NCBI GenBank assembly: GCA_023265025.1
Contig: JAHFUP010000009.1
Location: 1 to 64,000 of the forward strand
Source: Acidimicrobiia bacterium
GTDB taxonomy: Bacteria > Actinomycetota > Acidimicrobiia > Acidimicrobiales > AC-14
Direction: 5' to 3'
Length of the DNA stretch: 64,000 nucleotides
Positions 2,566 through 11,547 of the stretch are shown here, piece after piece. Numbering within the stretch: position 1 is the first letter of the stretch; each line of letters begins with the position of its first letter. The translations under genes were made by a program, and so were the position numbers. The notes below the pieces were generated by a model. The model saw nothing but the letters and a program-made list of their open reading frames with translations, searched no databases and was not told the DNA's origin.

Positions 2566-3173
2566 CCGACGACGACCCGCCCCAATCCCCCGACGAGCCC
2601 GGCGCGCCCGACGAGGAGCTCGTCCCCCGCATCCGCCGGACCCGCAAGGCGCTGTGGGTTGCGGTTGCCGTCGCCGTCCCGGTCTTCCTCCTGGTGCTGG
2701 CCCTGGCCAACGGCGAGCCGGCGGCGACCCGGGCGGTCAAGTCGCCACTCGTCGGCAAGGAGGCGCCGCCGATCGAGGGCACGACGGTCGACGGCGGACA
2801 GGCGTCGCTCGCCGGGCTCGACGGGAAGTGGGTGGTGGTCAACTTCTTCGCCACCTGGTGCGTCCCGTGCCGCCAGGAGCACTCGGAGCTCGTCCGCTTC
2901 TCTCAGGACCACCAGGCGACGGGCGACGCCGCGGTACTGGCGGTCGTCTACAGCGACAACGCCCAGGCGGTGAAGGAGTTCCGCGACAAGGAAGGCGGGG
3001 CGTGGGCGATGGTGACCGACCCCAAGGGCCGCATCGCCCTGGACTACGGGGTGGCCGGCGTGCCCGAGTCGTTCCTGATCAGTCCCGACGGGCAGGTGGT
3101 GGCCAAGCTGCTGGGCGGGGTCAGGGCCGGCGACCTCGACCAGCTGCTCTACCGGGCCAAGACCGGGCAGTAA
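2562..3173 (+). CDS. TlpA/ResA-like membrane-anchored thioredoxin
   Basis: The 203-residue protein has an acidic cytoplasmic N-terminus, one membrane anchor (about residues 30-48) and an extracytoplasmic TlpA-like thioredoxin fold. The active site is WCVPC and the cis-proline loop is GVPESF. It would reduce cytochrome c apoprotein or other exported thiols using electrons from the adjacent CcdA. The start overlaps the ccdA stop (ATGA); an in-frame ATG four codons upstream is possible. Its 3' end overlaps the convergent sialidase-like gene by about 53 bp. Confidence 0.87.
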   Translation: MTDDDPPQSPDEPGAPDEELVPRIRRTRKALWVAVAVAVPVFLLVLALANGEPAATRAVKSPLVGKEAPPIEGTTVDGGQASLAGLDGKWVVVNFFATWCVPCRQEHSELVRFSQDHQATGDAAVLAVVYSDNAQAVKEFRDKEGGAWAMVTDPKGRIALDYGVAGVPESFLISPDGQVVAKLLGGVRAGDLDQLLYRAKTGQ

Positions 3174-4596
3174 CCACCGCGCCCAGGACGGCGAGCAGCC
3201 CGCCGCCGGCCACCAGCGGCACGCGGGCGCCGGCGCCGGAGCGCACCTCGACGGTCGCCGACACGAGGTCGACGATGTTGTTGACCCGGTTGCCCCGGGC
3301 GGTGTCGGCCCAGATGGCCGTCGCCCTGCCGGCGCCGGACGCCACGGCCATGTGGCTGCCGAGCATGACGTCGTCGCCGTTGAAGCTGCCCACCATCGAG
3401 TCGAACGGGGCGTCGGTGAGCGTCGTGGTGGTGAAGGCGCGGCCGCCGTCCGACGACGAGGCCATCACCACGTTGGCCAGCACGTCGTCGGGGTCGCCAC
3501 TGCGGTCGTAATAGGCCACGTCGACGCGGCCGTCGGGGGCCACTCCGATGCCGGGCAGGAATTGGCCGCCGGCCGACGGGCCGAGCCGGCGGGGGGTGGT
3601 CCACGAGCCGCCCCCGTCGTCGGAGCGGGCCAGGACGACGTCCCGGCCCGTTTCCCACGAGGCGTACAGGCGACCCCGTGCCCCGTCCACCGCGAACGCC
3701 GGCGCCGGCGCCAGGTCGATCAGCACCCGCTGCGCCGGCACCACGCCGTCGGCCACGGTCCTCGCCGGCCCGAACGTCGACCCGCCGTCGGTCGAGGCCC
3801 ATGCCACGATCCGCCACGGCCCGGCCGGCGGGGGGCCCGGCTGGCCCTCGTGAAGGGACTGGTACGTGGTCCGGTCGTCGACCAGGTCGAGGGCGCCGAC
3901 CAGCACCCGGCCGTCGGGCCACGCCAGGAGCGTCGGCTGGACGGCCAGGCGGCCGGGCTCGCTCACGGTCACCGGCCGGGAGAACGTACGGCCGCCGTCC
4001 TCGGAACGGACCACGACGATCGGGTTGGGCGGCGGGCCGAAGCCGAGCGACTTGGTGGCCCGGACCTCGCTGGCCTGGATCCACGACACGAGCACCCGCC
4101 GGCCCTCCACCGCCAGCCGGGGCTGGAAGGTCAGCGGTCCGCTGACCAGCAGGGGGGCGCCGTCCGCCACCAGCTCGGGAGTAAAGCGCTGGAGTCGGAG
4201 TGCGGTCGGCAGGTTGAACGGGCCGCCGGTCGGCGTGTAAAGGACGAGCAGGTTGCCATCGCCGTCGAAGGCGATCGCCGGCCAGAAGCAGTTGGTGGCG
4301 TCGGGCGCCAGCGGCAGGTCCAGCCGGCGCCACGCCTCACCGCGGGTCGTCGACACCGCCAGCGTGCAGTTCAGCTGGGGCGCGTCGACCCGGCCGGCGG
4401 TGACCAGCACCTCCGGCCGGCGGGGGTCGACGGCGACCACCGGGGACGTGTTCACGTTGATGGCCAACTGGGGGTCGTCGCTCACCTGCTGGGTCGGCGC
4501 GGGGTGGAGGGAGGCGCCCCGGCCCTGCAACCCGAACAGCGCGAGCCCGGCGCCGGCCACCAGGGCCCCGATGGCGACGCCCGGGCGGCTGTTCAC
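3121..4596 (-). CDS. Sialidase-like BNR-repeat protein, membrane anchored
   Basis: The 491-residue protein has an N-terminal hydrophobic segment, a beta-propeller body with at least four Asp-box (BNR) motifs (SEDGGRTFS, STDGGSTFG, SDDGGGSWT, SSDGGRAFT), and a C-terminal hydrophobic helix followed by a basic tail. This is a typical exported and anchored arrangement. The fold is that of sialidases and other BNR proteins. I do not see the arginine triad that would prove sialidase activity, so the substrate is unknown. It starts with GTG 10 bp after the beta-helix gene ends, so the two may form one transcript. Confidence 0.7.
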   Translation of the reverse strand: MNSRPGVAIGALVAGAGLALFGLQGRGASLHPAPTQQVSDDPQLAINVNTSPVVAVDPRRPEVLVTAGRVDAPQLNCTLAVSTTRGEAWRRLDLPLAPDATNCFWPAIAFDGDGNLLVLYTPTGGPFNLPTALRLQRFTPELVADGAPLLVSGPLTFQPRLAVEGRRVLVSWIQASEVRATKSLGFGPPPNPIVVVRSEDGGRTFSRPVTVSEPGRLAVQPTLLAWPDGRVLVGALDLVDDRTTYQSLHEGQPGPPPAGPWRIVAWASTDGGSTFGPARTVADGVVPAQRVLIDLAPAPAFAVDGARGRLYASWETGRDVVLARSDDGGGSWTTPRRLGPSAGGQFLPGIGVAPDGRVDVAYYDRSGDPDDVLANVVMASSSDGGRAFTTTTLTDAPFDSMVGSFNGDDVMLGSHMAVASGAGRATAIWADTARGNRVNNIVDLVSATVEVRSGAGARVPLVAGGGLLAVLGAVVTARSWPGRAAGRGRRP

Positions 4597-4606
4597 CGCC
4601 GGGACG

Positions 4607-7600
4607 TTAGCGAGTCACCCGCGGGACCAGGTGCCTCGGGCGGAACCGGAAGTAGGCCCACAGGCCGACGGAGATCCCCCCGAAGATCAGGAACAGGGCC
4701 ACCACGCCGATCGTCACCTCGCCGGTGGTGTGCCCGACGTAGCCGCTCGTCGGCGACATCAGTACGTGCACGGCGACGAAGACGCCGAGGAACATCAGGA
4801 CCGCCCAGATGGTGCGGTTCCAGTCGATCACCTTCCGGCCGTCGAGGAAGCGCATCGGCAGCATGGCCACGACGAGGCCCTCGACCCCCCACAGGAAGAC
4901 CAGCACCAGGAATGCCTCGAGGCCGATCCACCACACATTGGCGTCGGGTCGGGCGGCGGCCTCCGAGACCGGCATGCGGGCGAGCCAGGCGCCGACGCTC
5001 AGGACGAGGGCGAACACCCAGTTGGCCGCGGTGAGCCGGCCCTGGTCGGCGCGGGTCAGCGCGCTGGCGAAGGCCAGGCCGGCGAGGGCGCCGTACATGT
5101 ACCCGGGCTGGAAGTGGAATGCCCGGGACAGGGCCACCATGGCGATCGACACCAGGACGGTGCCGGGCAGGAAGTTCAGCTTGCCCCACTCACCGGTGCG
5201 GCGGTGGATGCCGACGTCGGCCGGGAGGCTGAAACCGACGCTCATGACCAGCAGCGCCACCGTGAAGCCGATGACCAGGACGAGGCTGTTCATGTTCAGC
5301 CCGAAGTCCGGGCTGAGGAAGCCGACGATCACCGCGGTCGCCACCGTGAGGCCTCCGAAGGTGGCGATCCGGCCGGCGCGCGAGCCGGCGCCGACGAGCC
5401 GCGGCGGGAGGCGGAACCAGCCGCGGATCTCGTCGTAGTTCTCCTCCACCGTCGAATTGAAGAGCTCGAACGGGAAGGCGAAGAGCAGGAGGAAGGCGAT
5501 GGCGACCACCGCGCTGGTGGCCAGGCGCTCCGGGTCGAGGGAGACCTGGTCGGGCGAGGCGAGCGAGGTGGCGATGGCGCTGCGGTGGACCTTCGCGTCG
5601 GTCACCAGGAAGGCGTTCGACGCCCGCAGGGGGCCGCCGGACGGCCGGCAGGCCGACGTGACGCGGTGCTCGCCCGGGTCGGCGTCCCCGGGGACGGAGA
5701 GGTTGCCGACCCCGACGCGGCCGGCGCGGTCCGGCGTGTCGGAGCCGATCCGGACCCCGTCGAAGAAGAAGTAGACGGTGTCGCAGTCCTCGTAGCCCTC
5801 GCCCGACACGTCGAGGCCGACACCGGGCGGCCCGTTCCGCTCGCCGTCGGGGTTGCGGGCGTCCAGGCTCGGGCCGGGGGGCGGTGGCGGCAGGGTGGTC
5901 GTGGTCGTGGTCGTGGTCGGTGCGGTCGTTGTGGTGGGCGGCACCGTCGTCGGGGGCACGGTCGTGGGCGGCACCGTCGTGGGCGGCACCGTCGTGGGCG
6001 GGACGGTCGTCGTTGAGGCGGTGGTCGACGTGGTCGGGCGGGTGGTCGTCGGTGCGACGGTCGTCGCCGTGGTCGGGATCGGTGTCGTGCGGACCGTGGT
6101 GGTGACCGTCGGCGTGGTGACCGAGGTGGTCGTCGTATCCACCAGGAGAATGATCTGCGTGGCGTTCGTCGTGGACGTCGTCGTCGGCGCAACCGTCGTG
6201 GACGTGGTCGTCGGCGCCACCGTCGTGCTGGTGCTCGTCGTGCTCGAGGTCGTGGTTGTCGGGGTGGGGCTGACCACCACGGACTCGTTGGGGGCGTTGC
6301 AGGCGCCGGCGACCGGGGCGTTGTTGGCGTCACCCGAGTACGACGCCACCCACCGGTAGGTGCCGGCGGTGGCCGGGGTGAACGGCGCCGAGACGACCGC
6401 GCCGTTGCCGGCGACCGGGCGGACGGACGTGAACGCCGGCGGCGTCGCGCAGGTGGCGTCGTTCGGGCCGTACAGCGCGAAGGTGATCGTCCCGCCCGGG
6501 TTGAAGCCGCCGGCGACGGTGGCCGTGTCGATGACCGCCCCTCCGAGTGTCGCGCCCGCCGACGCCTGGGTGGTGACCGCCGGCGCGGCCGGGGTCACGA
6601 CGACGTTCTCGTTCGTGTCGTTGCACTTGCCGGTGGCCATGCTCACGCCGCCGACCTGGTAGTCCGCCACCCACCGGTAGGTGCCGGCCGCACCGGTCGT
6701 GAAGGTCGGCGAGCCGTACACCGAGGTCCCGAGGACGACTGGGACCGACGCCGTGGCCGCCGGCGGGCTGGCGCAGGCGGCGTCGTTCGGCCCGTAGACC
6801 CGGAAGGTGATCGTGCCGGCGGTGAAGTCGCCCGCGAGGCTGGCGGTGTCGGAGATCACGCCGCCCACCGGCACCGCCGGCGACGCCTGGGTCGAGATCG
6901 TCACCGGGAAGGTGGCGACGACCGCCGGCGACAGCTCGGAGGTGTTGAGCAGCGTGGTGTGGGTGGCGGTGGCGGTGATGAATCGCTGCATGGGGTCGAC
7001 GGCCAGGCCGGTGGCGGTGTACGGGCCGGCCGACGCGCCGGTGTCGACGGTCGTCGAGCCGATGGGCGTCTGGCCCTCGGCGTCGGAGGTGGCGTTGCCG
7101 TAGAAGTCGATGACGAACTGGCCGGGGGAGTCCAGGGTGAAGGAGGCCGTCCAGACGCCCCCGGTGGAGGTCACGGTGCTGATCACCGGGAAGTTCTGAA
7201 GGTCGTTGGGGCCGGTGTCGGCGTCGCCCGGGTCGTTGGCTGTGGTCCCGTCGTCGCCGAGGTCGATGCCGAGGCCGCCGTTGGCGAAGATGCGGTTGAG
7301 CCGGACGGGGTTGCCAGCGCCGACGTCGATGGTGACGCCGGCTCCGCCGTTGAATGCGATCGTGTTGCCCGCTCCGGGTGTCGCCCCGCCCACCTCCGGG
7401 AAGGACGAGCCGACGTAGACGCCCGACCCGTCATTGCCCATGGCCCCGCCGGTGGCGTCGACGCCGATCGAGTTGCCCCATATGACGTCGCCGGTGCCGT
7501 CGTCGAAGATGCCGGCGCCGCCGTTGCCCGAGATGAGGTTCCCCTCGCCGGCGTTGGTGCCGCCGACGGTGGTGTTTCTCGAGCACAGGATCTCGATGCC

Positions 7601-9088
7601 GTCGCCGAGATTGGCCACCTGCGTGAGGCCCGAGCGGGCCGTGCCGACCCGGTTCCCCTGGATGGTGGTCAGGTTGGGGGCGACCTCGCCGCACCGCACG
7701 GAGACGCCGGCATCCTGGTTCCCGGAGATGACGTTCCCGGCGCCGGCCGCCGGCCCGCCGATCAGCACGTTCGAGGTCTCGGCGATGGCGACGCCGGCGG
7801 CGTTGGGCAGCGCGGTCAGGGTGTCGGGCGTGGTCCCGATGACGTTGCCCTGAATCCGGAGGTCGGTCACCCGCACCGCGAGGACGCCGGTGGAGGGGGT
7901 GAAGGACCCGCGGATGATGACGCCGTTCCCGGAGATGACGTTCCCGGCGCCGGCGGCGGTCCCGCCGATCAGGTAGTCTGTTCCGCCGTCGATCGAGATC
8001 CCGGCACCGCCATTCCCGAGGGGATTCGTTCCAGACGCGTCGGGACCGATGCGGTTGCCCTGGATGACCGTGCCGCCCGAGTTGAAGATCGAGATGCCGG
8101 CGCCGTCGTTCCCGGAGATCAGGTTGCCGGCGCCGGCGGCCGTGCCGCCGATGGTGGCGGCGCTGTCCTCGAGGACGATCCCGTCGTCATTGCCGACGGG
8201 ATCGTCGCCGGCGGCGTTGGTACCGATGTAGTTGCCGAGGATGGAGTTGGCGATCGACGTCGAGTCGGCGTACACGCCGCTCCCGTTGGCCGAGATGACG
8301 TTCCGGTCGAGGACGTTCGTGCCGCCGACGACGTTGGCGCCGGCGGTGACCCCCATGTAGACGCCGGCGCCTCCGTTGCCGACGGCGAGCGTGCCGCCCC
8401 GGTCGAGCCCGATGATGTTGCCGGCGACGACATTGCGGCTGCCCGTGATGTTGACCCCGTCGGCGGCGTTGCCGCTGATGAGGTTGCCCTGGCCGGCGGC
8501 GACGTCGACGGGCCGCCGGCCGATGACGTTGTCCGACCCGGCGATCGAGACGCCCGTCACGTTGGCTCGCGGGAACTCGTCGACGCCGATGCCGATCCAG
8601 TTGGCGCAGACGTCGTTGCCGTTCGTGCCCACGGCCACCGCTTCGGTGAACTGGGTCAGCGACAGGCCGCGGACGGTCGACCCGCCCGAACCGCCCGCCA
8701 GGATGATGCCCCGGTCCCGGGGCACGAGGCTGCCGGACGGGTCGAGCTGGCCCTGCACCTCGACGACGGGCCGTCCCGCGGCGGCGTACCCGGGTTGCGA
8801 CGTGGCGTCGATGGTGACGGGATCGGTGACCGCCGGCAGTTCGGTGGTGAGGAAAATGGTGACTGGCCCCGACGGGACGACCGCGATGTTGAAGACGATC
8901 ACGTCGGCGCCGGGGTTGGCGTTGGCGTTGAGGATCGCCTGGCGGAGCGTGCCTTTGCCGGCGTCGGCCGCGCTGTCCACGATGAGCTCGAGGGCCCGGG
9001 AATCGCCGGCGCGGAGAAGGAGTAGGACGGCCGCCATGCACATGGCGATGGCCAACCGCGCGGCCCAGGTGCGTATCGTCCAGCTCAC
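4607..9088 (-). CDS. Secreted beta-helix protein with polytopic membrane C-terminus
   Basis: This 1,493-residue protein is built in blocks: signal peptide (1-32); a CSLREA-like opening (GKGTLRQAILNANANPGAD, about 45-63); a long right-handed parallel beta-helix of repeats such as GAGNVISGN and VIGG (70-630); two similar Ig-like domains, both with FxVYGPNDA or FALYGPNDA (730-940); a Thr/Pro/Val linker with tandem VPPTT (940-1075); a small beta domain; and 8-9 transmembrane helices (about 1195-1480). Beta-helix proteins often bind or cleave polysaccharides, but no catalytic residues are identifiable. The GTG start has GGGAGA nine bases upstream. The membrane domain begins AFPFELFNSTVEENYDEI. Confidence 0.75.
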   Translation of the reverse strand: MSWTIRTWAARLAIAMCMAAVLLLLRAGDSRALELIVDSAADAGKGTLRQAILNANANPGADVIVFNIAVVPSGPVTIFLTTELPAVTDPVTIDATSQPGYAAAGRPVVEVQGQLDPSGSLVPRDRGIILAGGSGGSTVRGLSLTQFTEAVAVGTNGNDVCANWIGIGVDEFPRANVTGVSIAGSDNVIGRRPVDVAAGQGNLISGNAADGVNITGSRNVVAGNIIGLDRGGTLAVGNGGAGVYMGVTAGANVVGGTNVLDRNVISANGSGVYADSTSIANSILGNYIGTNAAGDDPVGNDDGIVLEDSAATIGGTAAGAGNLISGNDGAGISIFNSGGTVIQGNRIGPDASGTNPLGNGGAGISIDGGTDYLIGGTAAGAGNVISGNGVIIRGSFTPSTGVLAVRVTDLRIQGNVIGTTPDTLTALPNAAGVAIAETSNVLIGGPAAGAGNVISGNQDAGVSVRCGEVAPNLTTIQGNRVGTARSGLTQVANLGDGIEILCSRNTTVGGTNAGEGNLISGNGGAGIFDDGTGDVIWGNSIGVDATGGAMGNDGSGVYVGSSFPEVGGATPGAGNTIAFNGGAGVTIDVGAGNPVRLNRIFANGGLGIDLGDDGTTANDPGDADTGPNDLQNFPVISTVTSTGGVWTASFTLDSPGQFVIDFYGNATSDAEGQTPIGSTTVDTGASAGPYTATGLAVDPMQRFITATATHTTLLNTSELSPAVVATFPVTISTQASPAVPVGGVISDTASLAGDFTAGTITFRVYGPNDAACASPPAATASVPVVLGTSVYGSPTFTTGAAGTYRWVADYQVGGVSMATGKCNDTNENVVVTPAAPAVTTQASAGATLGGAVIDTATVAGGFNPGGTITFALYGPNDATCATPPAFTSVRPVAGNGAVVSAPFTPATAGTYRWVASYSGDANNAPVAGACNAPNESVVVSPTPTTTTSSTTSTSTTVAPTTTSTTVAPTTTSTTNATQIILLVDTTTTSVTTPTVTTTVRTTPIPTTATTVAPTTTRPTTSTTASTTTVPPTTVPPTTVPPTTVPPTTVPPTTTTAPTTTTTTTTLPPPPPGPSLDARNPDGERNGPPGVGLDVSGEGYEDCDTVYFFFDGVRIGSDTPDRAGRVGVGNLSVPGDADPGEHRVTSACRPSGGPLRASNAFLVTDAKVHRSAIATSLASPDQVSLDPERLATSAVVAIAFLLLFAFPFELFNSTVEENYDEIRGWFRLPPRLVGAGSRAGRIATFGGLTVATAVIVGFLSPDFGLNMNSLVLVIGFTVALLVMSVGFSLPADVGIHRRTGEWGKLNFLPGTVLVSIAMVALSRAFHFQPGYMYGALAGLAFASALTRADQGRLTAANWVFALVLSVGAWLARMPVSEAAARPDANVWWIGLEAFLVLVFLWGVEGLVVAMLPMRFLDGRKVIDWNRTIWAVLMFLGVFVAVHVLMSPTSGYVGHTTGEVTIGVVALFLIFGGISVGLWAYFRFRPRHLVPRVTR
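5934..6012 (-). repeat. 15-bp tandem repeat encoding VPPTT units
   Basis: About five near-identical 15-bp units (consensus GTGGGCGGCACCGTC on the plus strand) encode VPPTT repeats in the linker of the beta-helix protein. The repeat is in frame, so copy number could change by slippage without a frameshift. Confidence 0.8.
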
Positions 9089-9163: not shown

Positions 9164-9904
9164 CTACCGGGTGATCAGCTTGGCCAGCTCACCGATGGCC
9201 ACCACGGCCGGCGCCGTGGGGTCGGCGTCGATGGCGGCGATGCCCAGGTGGTCGGCGTCCTCGATGGCCCGGTCCTCGGGGACGGTGAACATCTCGACGC
9301 CGAGCTCCTCGCCGATGCGCTTGGCGTCGACGTCGTCGATCGTCCGGTTCGAGATGCCGATGATCCGCTTGACGCCCAGTTCCTCGGCCAGCCGGCAGGC
9401 CCGGCGGGCGATCTCGACCGACTTGGCGCTGCCCTCGGTGACGGCCAGGACCACGTCGTCGGCGCCGGGCTTGGCCCAGATGAGGTCGTTGAGCCCGGCC
9501 TCGAGGTCGGCGATGACGACGCGGTCGTCGGCGGGAAGCTCACCGAAGAACTGGCGCGTCGTGTTGTGCGATCCGCAGCACAGGCAGGCGTTGGACGGGC
9601 GCTCGATCTTGCCCGTGGCGACCAGGCGGATGCCCTCGGGGGCGTCGACGCCGTAGCGGTCGAGCAGGACCTCGGCCTCGATCTTGGGGTCCTTGTGGGT
9701 GTGGCCGGCGTCGATGAGGGCGTTGAGGATGGGGCTCATCGACTCGACGCTCTCCCGGGGCACGCCGAGGGAGATGCCCAGGTTCGGGTTGGGGTCGCAG
9801 TCCAGGGCCACGACCTTGTGCCCCTGGCGGGCCAGGTGGCGGGCGAGGGCGCCGGAGATCGTGCTCTTGCCCGATCCACCCTTGCCACAGACGGCGATCT
9901 TCAT
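9164..9904 (-). CDS. CooC-type MinD/ParA ATPase with CxC motif
   Basis: This 246-residue deviant-Walker ATPase opens with GKGGSGKST (7-15) and has the DCDPNPNLG switch. C107-L-C109-C110 sits where characterised CooC nickel chaperones carry the CxC pair that binds metal at the dimer interface. CooC proteins load nickel into CO dehydrogenase. No such enzyme is in this window; instead the gene is the third member of a leftward cobO operon, overlapping the preceding ATPase gene (ATGA). A metal or cofactor-loading role, perhaps for cobalt, is inference. The family call is firm and the substrate unknown. Confidence 0.8.
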   Translation of the reverse strand: MKIAVCGKGGSGKSTISGALARHLARQGHKVVALDCDPNPNLGISLGVPRESVESMSPILNALIDAGHTHKDPKIEAEVLLDRYGVDAPEGIRLVATGKIERPSNACLCCGSHNTTRQFFGELPADDRVVIADLEAGLNDLIWAKPGADDVVLAVTEGSAKSVEIARRACRLAEELGVKRIIGISNRTIDDVDAKRIGEELGVEMFTVPEDRAIEDADHLGIAAIDADPTAPAVVAIGELAKLITR

Positions 9905-10989
9905 ACCGGTACCTCCTGGTTCAAGTAAAGGGCTGCAAGCTGGCGAAGGGCGACGATGGCCGGCGAGTCGGGGCAGGCGTCGAGGGGCGCCAGGCCCTGG
10001 CGCTCCACCTCGGCCAGTTCCGGGTCGAACGGGATGCGGAAGCGGGCGGCGAGGCCCGGGTGGTCGGGCTCATCGCGGAAGCGGTTGGCGATGATGAGCG
10101 AGCGCCGGCCCTCGACCATGGGGAGCAGGCGCCGGGCGGTCATGGCCGAGCGCCACGCCGGCCCGACGACGACCACCACGTCCTCCGAGAAGGCGTGGTA
10201 GCGCTCGAAGGGGGTGGTGGGCCCCGCTTCGAGGTCGGCGATGACGTCCCAGTCGGGCTCGCCGATCCCCAGCATCAGGTGCACCAGCGCGGCCACCGAC
10301 TGCTTGGCCGCCGACTTGTCGGTGCCGCCCCCCTCCGACGCCGGCCCGATCTTGCCGAAGCCCAGGAAGCGCACGCCGTCGGGGGCGGCCGAGGCGAATT
10401 TCTCGACCACCTGGATGGGCGTCATGTCGCCCGTGAGCTGCCACCCGTAGATCGACCCGGGGTGCTCCTCGATCGAGCCCTCGGGCATGCCGCCTTGGTC
10501 GCCCTGCATGCCCAGGCTGACGGCCAGGCCGGGGTTGACGTCGAGGTCGCACGCGAGCACTTTGCGGCCGGCCTGGGCGAACAGGCGGGCCAGCGTGGAC
10601 GACGTGACGGTCTTGCCGGCGCCCCCCTTGCCGATGACGGCCAGGCGGATGCCGAGCCCGGCCCGGGCCGCTTCGAGCTCTTCGGCGTCGACGCCGGCCA
10701 CCTGCTCCTGGGCCCGGTGGGCGTAGCCGGCGAGGGCCGCCTGGTGCGTGGCCATCTGGCCGCGGGCGCCGGGGAAGATCGTTTCCTTGGCCAGCCAGGT
10801 GCCGAGGTGGCGGGCGTAGCTGTTGGCCTGGCGCTCGAGGGCCAGCCACGCCGCTGTGCCGGCGGCCCGGTCGGCCAGGTCGTCCATGACGACGAGCTGG
10901 CGCTCCATGCACTGGATCGCCCACTCGTCGCGCTTCGGCAGCTCTTCCCCCACAAGGTCTGACTCTACCGCCGAACTGCCAATACTCAA
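9901..10989 (-). CDS. CooC-like ATPase with helical N-extension, no CxC
   Basis: The 362-residue protein has a helical 115-residue N-terminal extension (ERQANSYARHLGTWLAKE) and then a CooC/MinD ATPase domain with GKGGAGKTVT (120-129) and DLDVNPGLAVSLG. It aligns with its neighbour throughout: GFGKIGPASEGGG lies where the neighbour has ATGKIERPSNACLCC, so the metal-type cysteines are absent. The stop overlaps the next start, so both are made together and could form a heterodimer. It lies 33 bp downstream of cobO. Function unknown; candidate metallochaperone subunit. Confidence 0.75.
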   Translation of the reverse strand: MSIGSSAVESDLVGEELPKRDEWAIQCMERQLVVMDDLADRAAGTAAWLALERQANSYARHLGTWLAKETIFPGARGQMATHQAALAGYAHRAQEQVAGVDAEELEAARAGLGIRLAVIGKGGAGKTVTSSTLARLFAQAGRKVLACDLDVNPGLAVSLGMQGDQGGMPEGSIEEHPGSIYGWQLTGDMTPIQVVEKFASAAPDGVRFLGFGKIGPASEGGGTDKSAAKQSVAALVHLMLGIGEPDWDVIADLEAGPTTPFERYHAFSEDVVVVVGPAWRSAMTARRLLPMVEGRRSLIIANRFRDEPDHPGLAARFRIPFDPELAEVERQGLAPLDACPDSPAIVALRQLAALYLNQEVPV

Positions 10990-11022
10990 TGCCCAAGTTG
11001 GTGGCGCGGGCCGACGGGCAAA

Positions 11023-11547
11023 TCAGTATTCGATACCCTTTTTTGCCTTGACGCCCTGGTCGTAGGCGTGCTTGACCTTGCGCATCTCGGTCACGGTGTC
11101 GGCCAGTTCCACCAGCTCGTCGGGGGCGTCGCGACCGGTGATGACGACGTTGGTGTGCGGGGCCCGGTTGCGGACGCCGTCGACCACGTCGGCCACGTCG
11201 ACCCAGCCGTACTTCACCGCGTAGGTGAGCTCATCGAGGATGAGGAGGTCGAAGTCACCCGACGCCAGCTTGGCGGCGGCGACGTCCCACGCGTGGCGGC
11301 CCTTGGCCGCCGTCTCGTCGAGGTCGGTGGACTCCCACGTGAACCCGTCGCCCAGGGTGTGCCACTCGATCTCGAGGTGGTCGGCCAGCTTGCGCTCGCC
11401 GGTCTTCCACTTCCCGCTCTTGATGAACTGCACGACGCCGACCCGCCAGCCCCGGGCCCATCCCCGGCCCATGACCCCGAACGCGGCCGACGACTTGCCT
11501 TTGCCGTAGCCGGTGTTGACGAGGACGATCGATTCGGCTCTCGGCAT
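11023..11547 (-). CDS. cobO: Cob(I)yrinic acid a,c-diamide adenosyltransferase (CobO)
   Basis: This enzyme transfers the 5'-deoxyadenosyl group of ATP to cob(I)alamin-type corrinoids, giving the adenosylated intermediates used by cobQ, cbiB and cobU products. The 174 residues match the CobA/CobO family: P-loop variant NTGYGKGKSSAAFG at the N-terminus, then VVQFIKSG, LLILDELTYA and NVVITGR. The ATG at 11547 has no Shine-Dalgarno sequence but a TACGCT box 7 nt upstream, so the mRNA is probably leaderless. It is divergent from the riboswitch operon and heads the leftward operon with the two CooC-like ATPases. Confidence 0.93.
   Translation of the reverse strand: MPRAESIVLVNTGYGKGKSSAAFGVMGRGWARGWRVGVVQFIKSGKWKTGERKLADHLEIEWHTLGDGFTWESTDLDETAAKGRHAWDVAAAKLASGDFDLLILDELTYAVKYGWVDVADVVDGVRNRAPHTNVVITGRDAPDELVELADTVTEMRKVKHAYDQGVKAKKGIEY

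Follow-up and report, generated by a model that had tools for sequence, protein, structure and literature searches.

The window, by which we mean the whole 64,000-nucleotide stretch of an Acidimicrobiia genome that was analysed, encodes two CooC/MinD-type ATPases, here called A and B, of which only B carries a cysteine motif. We found that this A+B pair is widespread in Actinomycetota, where it occurs as two sister versions. The explanation that we favor, and to which we give roughly even chances, is that the pair is a heteromeric CooC-type ATPase that inserts a metal, probably nickel, for a hydrogenase system, the window copy being a paralogue that has diverged and has Cys only. As judged from sequence comparison, the pair is conserved and co-duplicated, is linked to hydrogenase genes, shows selenocysteine (Sec) and SECIS signals in relatives, and goes together with depletion of HypB. 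A heterodimer, the identity of its metal, the mechanism of insertion and the client of the window copy are what we infer.

The locus and its two ATPases

The three open reading frames that a preliminary description had reported here, cobO and two overlapping ATPase genes on the minus strand, were all recovered (Table 1). They run in the order cobO, A, B; the genes of A and B share 4 nt (ATGA, 9901-9904), and the gap between cobO and A is 33-69 nt, the start codon of A being uncertain (TTG at 10989 or GTG at 10953). The cobO product matches TIGR00708/PF02572 at E ~1e-62, and cobO and the pair probably form one operon. At its 5' end, the cobalamin riboswitch overlaps the region of the cobO start codon; it heads and controls a divergent cob operon on the plus strand, not the ATPase operon. 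On the other side, a 1493-aa beta-helix surface protein (4607-9088) lies directly downstream of B, as does, further along at 3121-4596, a BNR-repeat secreted protein. BNR proteins recur beside CLCC pairs and beside Sec pairs that lie outside hydrogenase clusters. We considered them as a conserved neighbor of the CLCC pair (5/13 loci), but because they are abundant in these genomes, we draw no function from this adjacency.

Table 1. Features of the cobO-ATPase region of the window
Feature	Position	Strand	Basis
ATPase B (P0001, 246 aa), CooC/MinD-type, CLCC motif	9164-9904	-	family and structure-sequence searches, AlphaFold2, fold search
CLCC codons TGC CTG TGC TGC (B residues 107-110)	9575-9586	-	sequence
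ATPase A (P0002, 362 aa from TTG), no Cys motif	9901-10989	-	sequence, alignment with B, AlphaFold2, fold search
N-terminal helical extension of A (residues 1-113)	10651-10989	-	AlphaFold2
cobO, corrinoid adenosyltransferase, upstream neighbor of A	11023-11547	-	TIGR00708/PF02572
Cobalamin riboswitch RF00174, 94 bits	11543-11723	+	Rfam scan

The asymmetry of the pair is evident from alignment. The CLCC of B (C107-L-C109-C110) falls on the CxC (CYC) of CooC 3kje (E 1.2e-18), which is the nearest sequence to B among solved structures; the motif aligns with the metal position of CooC, as had been proposed. A is 30% identical to B over 256 positions (E 2e-23) and has, as also described before, GPASEGGG and no Cys where B has its Cys loop. 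Both proteins contain the deviant Walker A GKGGxGK (GKGGxGKT/S). The AlphaFold2 monomers of the two proteins are confident CooC/MinD/NifH folds (pLDDT 88 and 86), with the CLCC of B situated in a flexible, low-confidence loop (100-114). The extension of A, earlier put at 115 residues, is predicted to span about 113 and to contain helices at 19-41, 45-67, 73-96 and 102-110; it is found in most window-type A proteins and is absent from the A proteins of hydrogenase clusters. In a fold search, the match of B to CooC 3kje (Z 21.7) was tied with those to the MinD and NifH folds, and for both A and B we found NifH, BchL and MinD to be equally close, so that CooC, MinD and NifH are not separable by this means. 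Neither protein scored above the cut-off of any curated NCBIfam model, nor did the relatives that were scanned, and matches to MinD/ParA-type families were well below theirs. A family scan gave no match of A or B to PF02492, nor did either match the HypB model TIGR00073/PF02492, which indicates that they are not G3E GTPases.

Conservation of the pair and linkage to hydrogenase genes

An asymmetric pair of CooC-type ATPases with a single metal motif is kept in 12 other genomes, each with CLCC in B, no Cys motif in A, and A directly upstream. In phylogenetic trees, the window-type A proteins are sister to those of hydrogenase clusters, and the same holds for B. The two versions of the pair thus correspond in gene order, in the presence of CxCC in B and its absence from A, and in forming sister clades. 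CODH-type CooC proteins form a 100% clade of their own, and B groups with the hydrogenase-cluster ATPases. This pattern indicates that the A-B cassette was duplicated as one unit, from which we argue that A and B work together.

The preliminary description had noted that the window lacks genes for CO dehydrogenase and CobW, and this extends to the genome as a whole, a 5.4-Mb draft that is 98% complete. It contains no PF03063 match, on which ground we rejected a CODH link of the pair, and PF02492 matches in it are limited to UreG and HypB. The same description had suggested that the pair might load cobalt for CobN. In its fuller form, this explanation holds that a lineage-specific cobalt chaperone arose when the CLCC pair was recruited to the cobO operon, where it replaces CobW and either feeds Co(II) to CobN-ChlID or hands a corrinoid to CobO or another client. 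Consistent with this, cobO, A and B stand in tandem with short gaps in the window and at one other locus, L084 (B 96% identical); the window genome encodes CobN with a nearby ChlD/I-type cobaltochelatase subunit and no CobW; and COG0523/CobW GTPases have the same CxCC motif as B (PMC9164220). However, the linkage to cobO is not conserved across relatives: it is found in just these two closely related genomes (at L083 and L086, the sequence stops short of the region), and at other window-type loci the neighbors are unrelated (BNR proteins, a VTT-domain protein, ilvBHC). Moreover, 9 of the 13 CLCC-pair genomes have a CobN match and 4 do not, several of these being drafts. The position of the window pair beside a B12 gene is a local arrangement. 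The asymmetric CooC-type pair of the preliminary description thus stands, while its cobalt inference is weak because it rests on adjacency at two near-identical loci. We consider recruitment to B12 synthesis unlikely, though the presence of CobN without CobW in this genome leaves it some probability in this lineage.

The hydrogenase-cluster version points elsewhere. Among its loci of at least 15 kb, 29 of 39 contain hydrogenase genes (large or small subunit, hypC-F, the protease HycI), and none of its 69 loci contains cobO, cobN, hypA or hypB, HypA having been searched for across relatives at the loci only. A [NiFe]-hydrogenase is encoded in all 13 CLCC-pair genomes, compared to a base rate of 172/296 (58%) in the phylum. 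In a genome beyond these 13 (G200:C306, L069), one 16-kb contig carries a window-type pair, a Sec-type pair and a [NiFe]-hydrogenase locus, together with a NifU-like gene and a protease. The preliminary description had set occurrence with nickel enzymes rather than with cobN against its own proposal. The nearest sister clade does reside in nickel-enzyme clusters, which comes close to this; the window copy itself, which adjoins cobO, lies outside any [NiFe]-hydrogenase cluster. The window genome has several [NiFe]-hydrogenase large-subunit genes and encodes HypA-HypB at L082, unlinked to the pair. Because of this, and because the pair is outside a hydrogenase cluster, nickel insertion by the pair would not be strictly needed there.

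Maturation of [NiFe]-hydrogenases is usually held to require HypA/HypB for nickel. HypB was found above the cut-off in 4 of 24 pair-bearing genomes and was absent from the other 20; it fell below the cut-off in, for instance, the pair-bearing Amycolatopsis marina, Haloechinothrix halophila and Blastococcus saxobsidens. In a phylum sample of 112 genomes with strong hydrogenase matches (hand-compiled lists, E 1e-30 or better), HypB was present in 1/8 genomes with the pair versus 87/104 without it (Fisher 6.6e-5), a P value that is indicative only, as it overstates independence among related genomes. Seventeen pair-less hydrogenase genomes likewise have no HypB, and since other CooC-like ATPases (CxC/UxC) share the clusters, a HypB-like role could be theirs. 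Still, many hydrogenase-bearing Actinomycetota in this survey have hypC-F, no detectable hypB, and a paired CooC-like ATPase instead.

Two further features of these regions are worth recording. Four hydrogenase clusters (L062, L063, L068, L070) encode single-pass membrane proteins of ~80-95 aa beside CooC-like genes, and the one that was tested belongs to no Pfam family. Peptide/nickel-type ABC transporter genes (SBP_bac_5-like) lie beside the pair in two hydrogenase regions (L064:5650-9119, L067:5934-11658), and possibly serve nickel uptake.

A different explanation of the linkage is that the pair assembles another metal center, an Fe-S or heterometal cluster, in the style of NifH/BchL or Mrp/NBP35, for the hydrogenase small subunit or another client. 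The equal closeness of the folds to NifH, BchL and MinD would fit this, as would the NifU-like genes in the hydrogenase clusters. Against it, B is nearest in sequence to CooC among solved structures, and its CxCC is confined to one loop of one partner, whereas NifH has two separated Cys per subunit. We regard this explanation, too, as improbable.

Selenocysteine signals in the sister clade

The motif is Cys in every window-type copy (CLCC). Among hydrogenase-cluster B proteins, it occurs as CxCC, CxUC or UxUC, and many copies have TGA or TAG as the first codon of the motif, the third or both. An identical hairpin core, GAGCAGTTGCTC, was found in 46/46 distinct Sec-coding copies, at exactly 18 nt counted from where the stop codon in third position starts, compared to 2/32 Cys copies of the sister B and 0/14 CLCC copies (Sec versus Cys, Fisher 1.4e-19, again indicative only). 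It belongs to a SECIS-like hairpin, in whose stem the outer pairs compensate each other (GCC..GGC, GCT..AGC, CCC..GGG). TAG replaces TGA at the Sec site of B in two strains, Blastococcus saxobsidens DSM 44509 and Modestobacter sp. DSM 44400 (L159, L161, ~10309-10324); this matches the established decoding of UAG as Sec in Geodermatophilaceae (PMC5330540). We rejected a reading of the TGA-bearing paralogues as frameshifted or pseudogenes: the stops lie at ligand positions, the reading frame stays open as far as its usual end, and conservation extends to the hairpin. Given the conserved hairpin, the TAG in Geodermatophilaceae, and the joint presence of SelA, SelB and tRNA-Sec, it is very likely, on these sequence signals, that the sister-clade B motif contains selenocysteine.

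The window genome itself encodes SelA-SelB (L022) and a tRNA-Sec with anticodon UCA, and three further CooC-like paralogues in it have TGA exactly at the metal motif. One of these (C158; L009:7038-7778) is a B paralogue with two in-frame TGA codons (GULUCG) and a SECIS-like hairpin; its partner A lies immediately upstream with a 4-nt overlap, making this the genome's second A+B pair, of the UxUC type. The others have a UTC motif (C105, on a contig that ends in a hydrogenase large subunit) and a UTG motif (C143). Window B is all-Cys, with neither the hairpin core nor an in-frame TGA or TAG, and we do not class it as a selenoprotein.

In hydrogenase-bearing genomes, we also observed unpaired CooC-like ATPases in which TGA takes the first place of the motif (GAGUTCG, GTGULCS, GSGUTGT; L012:9651-10424, L010:116-889, L039-L044, L095:1042-1782, L133:16203-16937); they are probable further selenoproteins. 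In addition, matches to the NiFe-hydrogenase large subunit contain a single in-frame TGA in many genomes of the phylum (e.g. G185:C16, G131:C1, G164:C1, G035:C24). These are likely [NiFeSe] hydrogenases, a type that a 2026 review limits to sulfate reducers and methanogens.

The invariance of the motif across the clade, and Sec at exactly the ligand positions in many relatives, make it very improbable that A and B are ordinary MinD/ParA-type positioning or regulatory ATPases with an incidental Cys motif, even though family scans yield only weak MinD/ParA-type matches.

Proposed function and comparison with known systems

We propose that A and B together make up a heteromeric metal-insertion ATPase of the CooC/MinD family, each contributing one half. 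In B, a flexible loop would present three clustered ligands, the thiols of CxCC or, in many relatives, selenols, at the place that corresponds to the intersubunit metal site of CooC. A would be a paralogue in which the ligands were lost and the deviant Walker A was retained, probably acting as dimer partner or as a subunit that docks the client or donor, and metal binding and release would be switched by ATP-driven dimerization and hydrolysis. The main job of the family may be [NiFe]-hydrogenase maturation, most likely nickel delivery where clusters have hypC-F and no hypA/hypB. The client of the window pair, as a diverged Cys-only paralogue, may be a [NiFe]-hydrogenase of its own genome or another Ni/Co enzyme. 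More tentatively, and with somewhat less than even confidence, we suggest that A+B is a selenium-using metal-insertion heterodimer, with UxUC, CxUC or CxCC on one subunit, that takes the place of HypA/HypB in the maturation of actinobacterial [NiFe]-hydrogenases, the window pair being an all-Cys paralogue. The pair is a concrete candidate for nickel insertion that does not depend on HypB, and the sister B is a candidate for a new selenoprotein family whose metal motif can hold two Sec; the natural Cys, single-Sec and double-Sec variants would allow a test of selenium's role in a metallochaperone.

The fold and the general idea of a CooC-type metallochaperone ATPase are already known. In the literature outside subscription journals that our search covered, we found no description of a ligand-less/ligand-bearing pair, of its hydrogenase linkage with HypB depletion, or of Sec in the motif, and a search of a 2026 review covering 119 families/subfamilies of prokaryotic selenoproteins (PMC13188914) gave no CooC/MinD-type entry.

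Compared to CooC (3kje), the nickel-chaperone ATPase that serves CO dehydrogenase and binds Ni/Zn via Cys112/Cys114 at its dimer interface (PMC6006190), the pair has the same fold and deviant Walker A; a cluster of Cys at the corresponding loop is present in B only. It differs in that B has CxCC rather than CxC, is encoded in an obligate pair together with a Cys-less partner and belongs to a separate clade; the window genome has no CODH, and the sister clade is hydrogenase-linked. The proposed role, NTP-dependent nickel insertion next to hypC-F, is that of HypB/HypA, but A and B are MinD-class ATPases and not a G3E GTPase, and the pair's loci are without HypA/HypB. B shares the CxCC ligand motif with the G3E GTPases of the CobW/COG0523 family, whereas the missing PF02492 match places A and B in another NTPase class. 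Finally, the sister B resembles known prokaryotic selenoproteins in its exchange of Cys and Sec at a metal/thiol motif and in the SECIS-like hairpin downstream.
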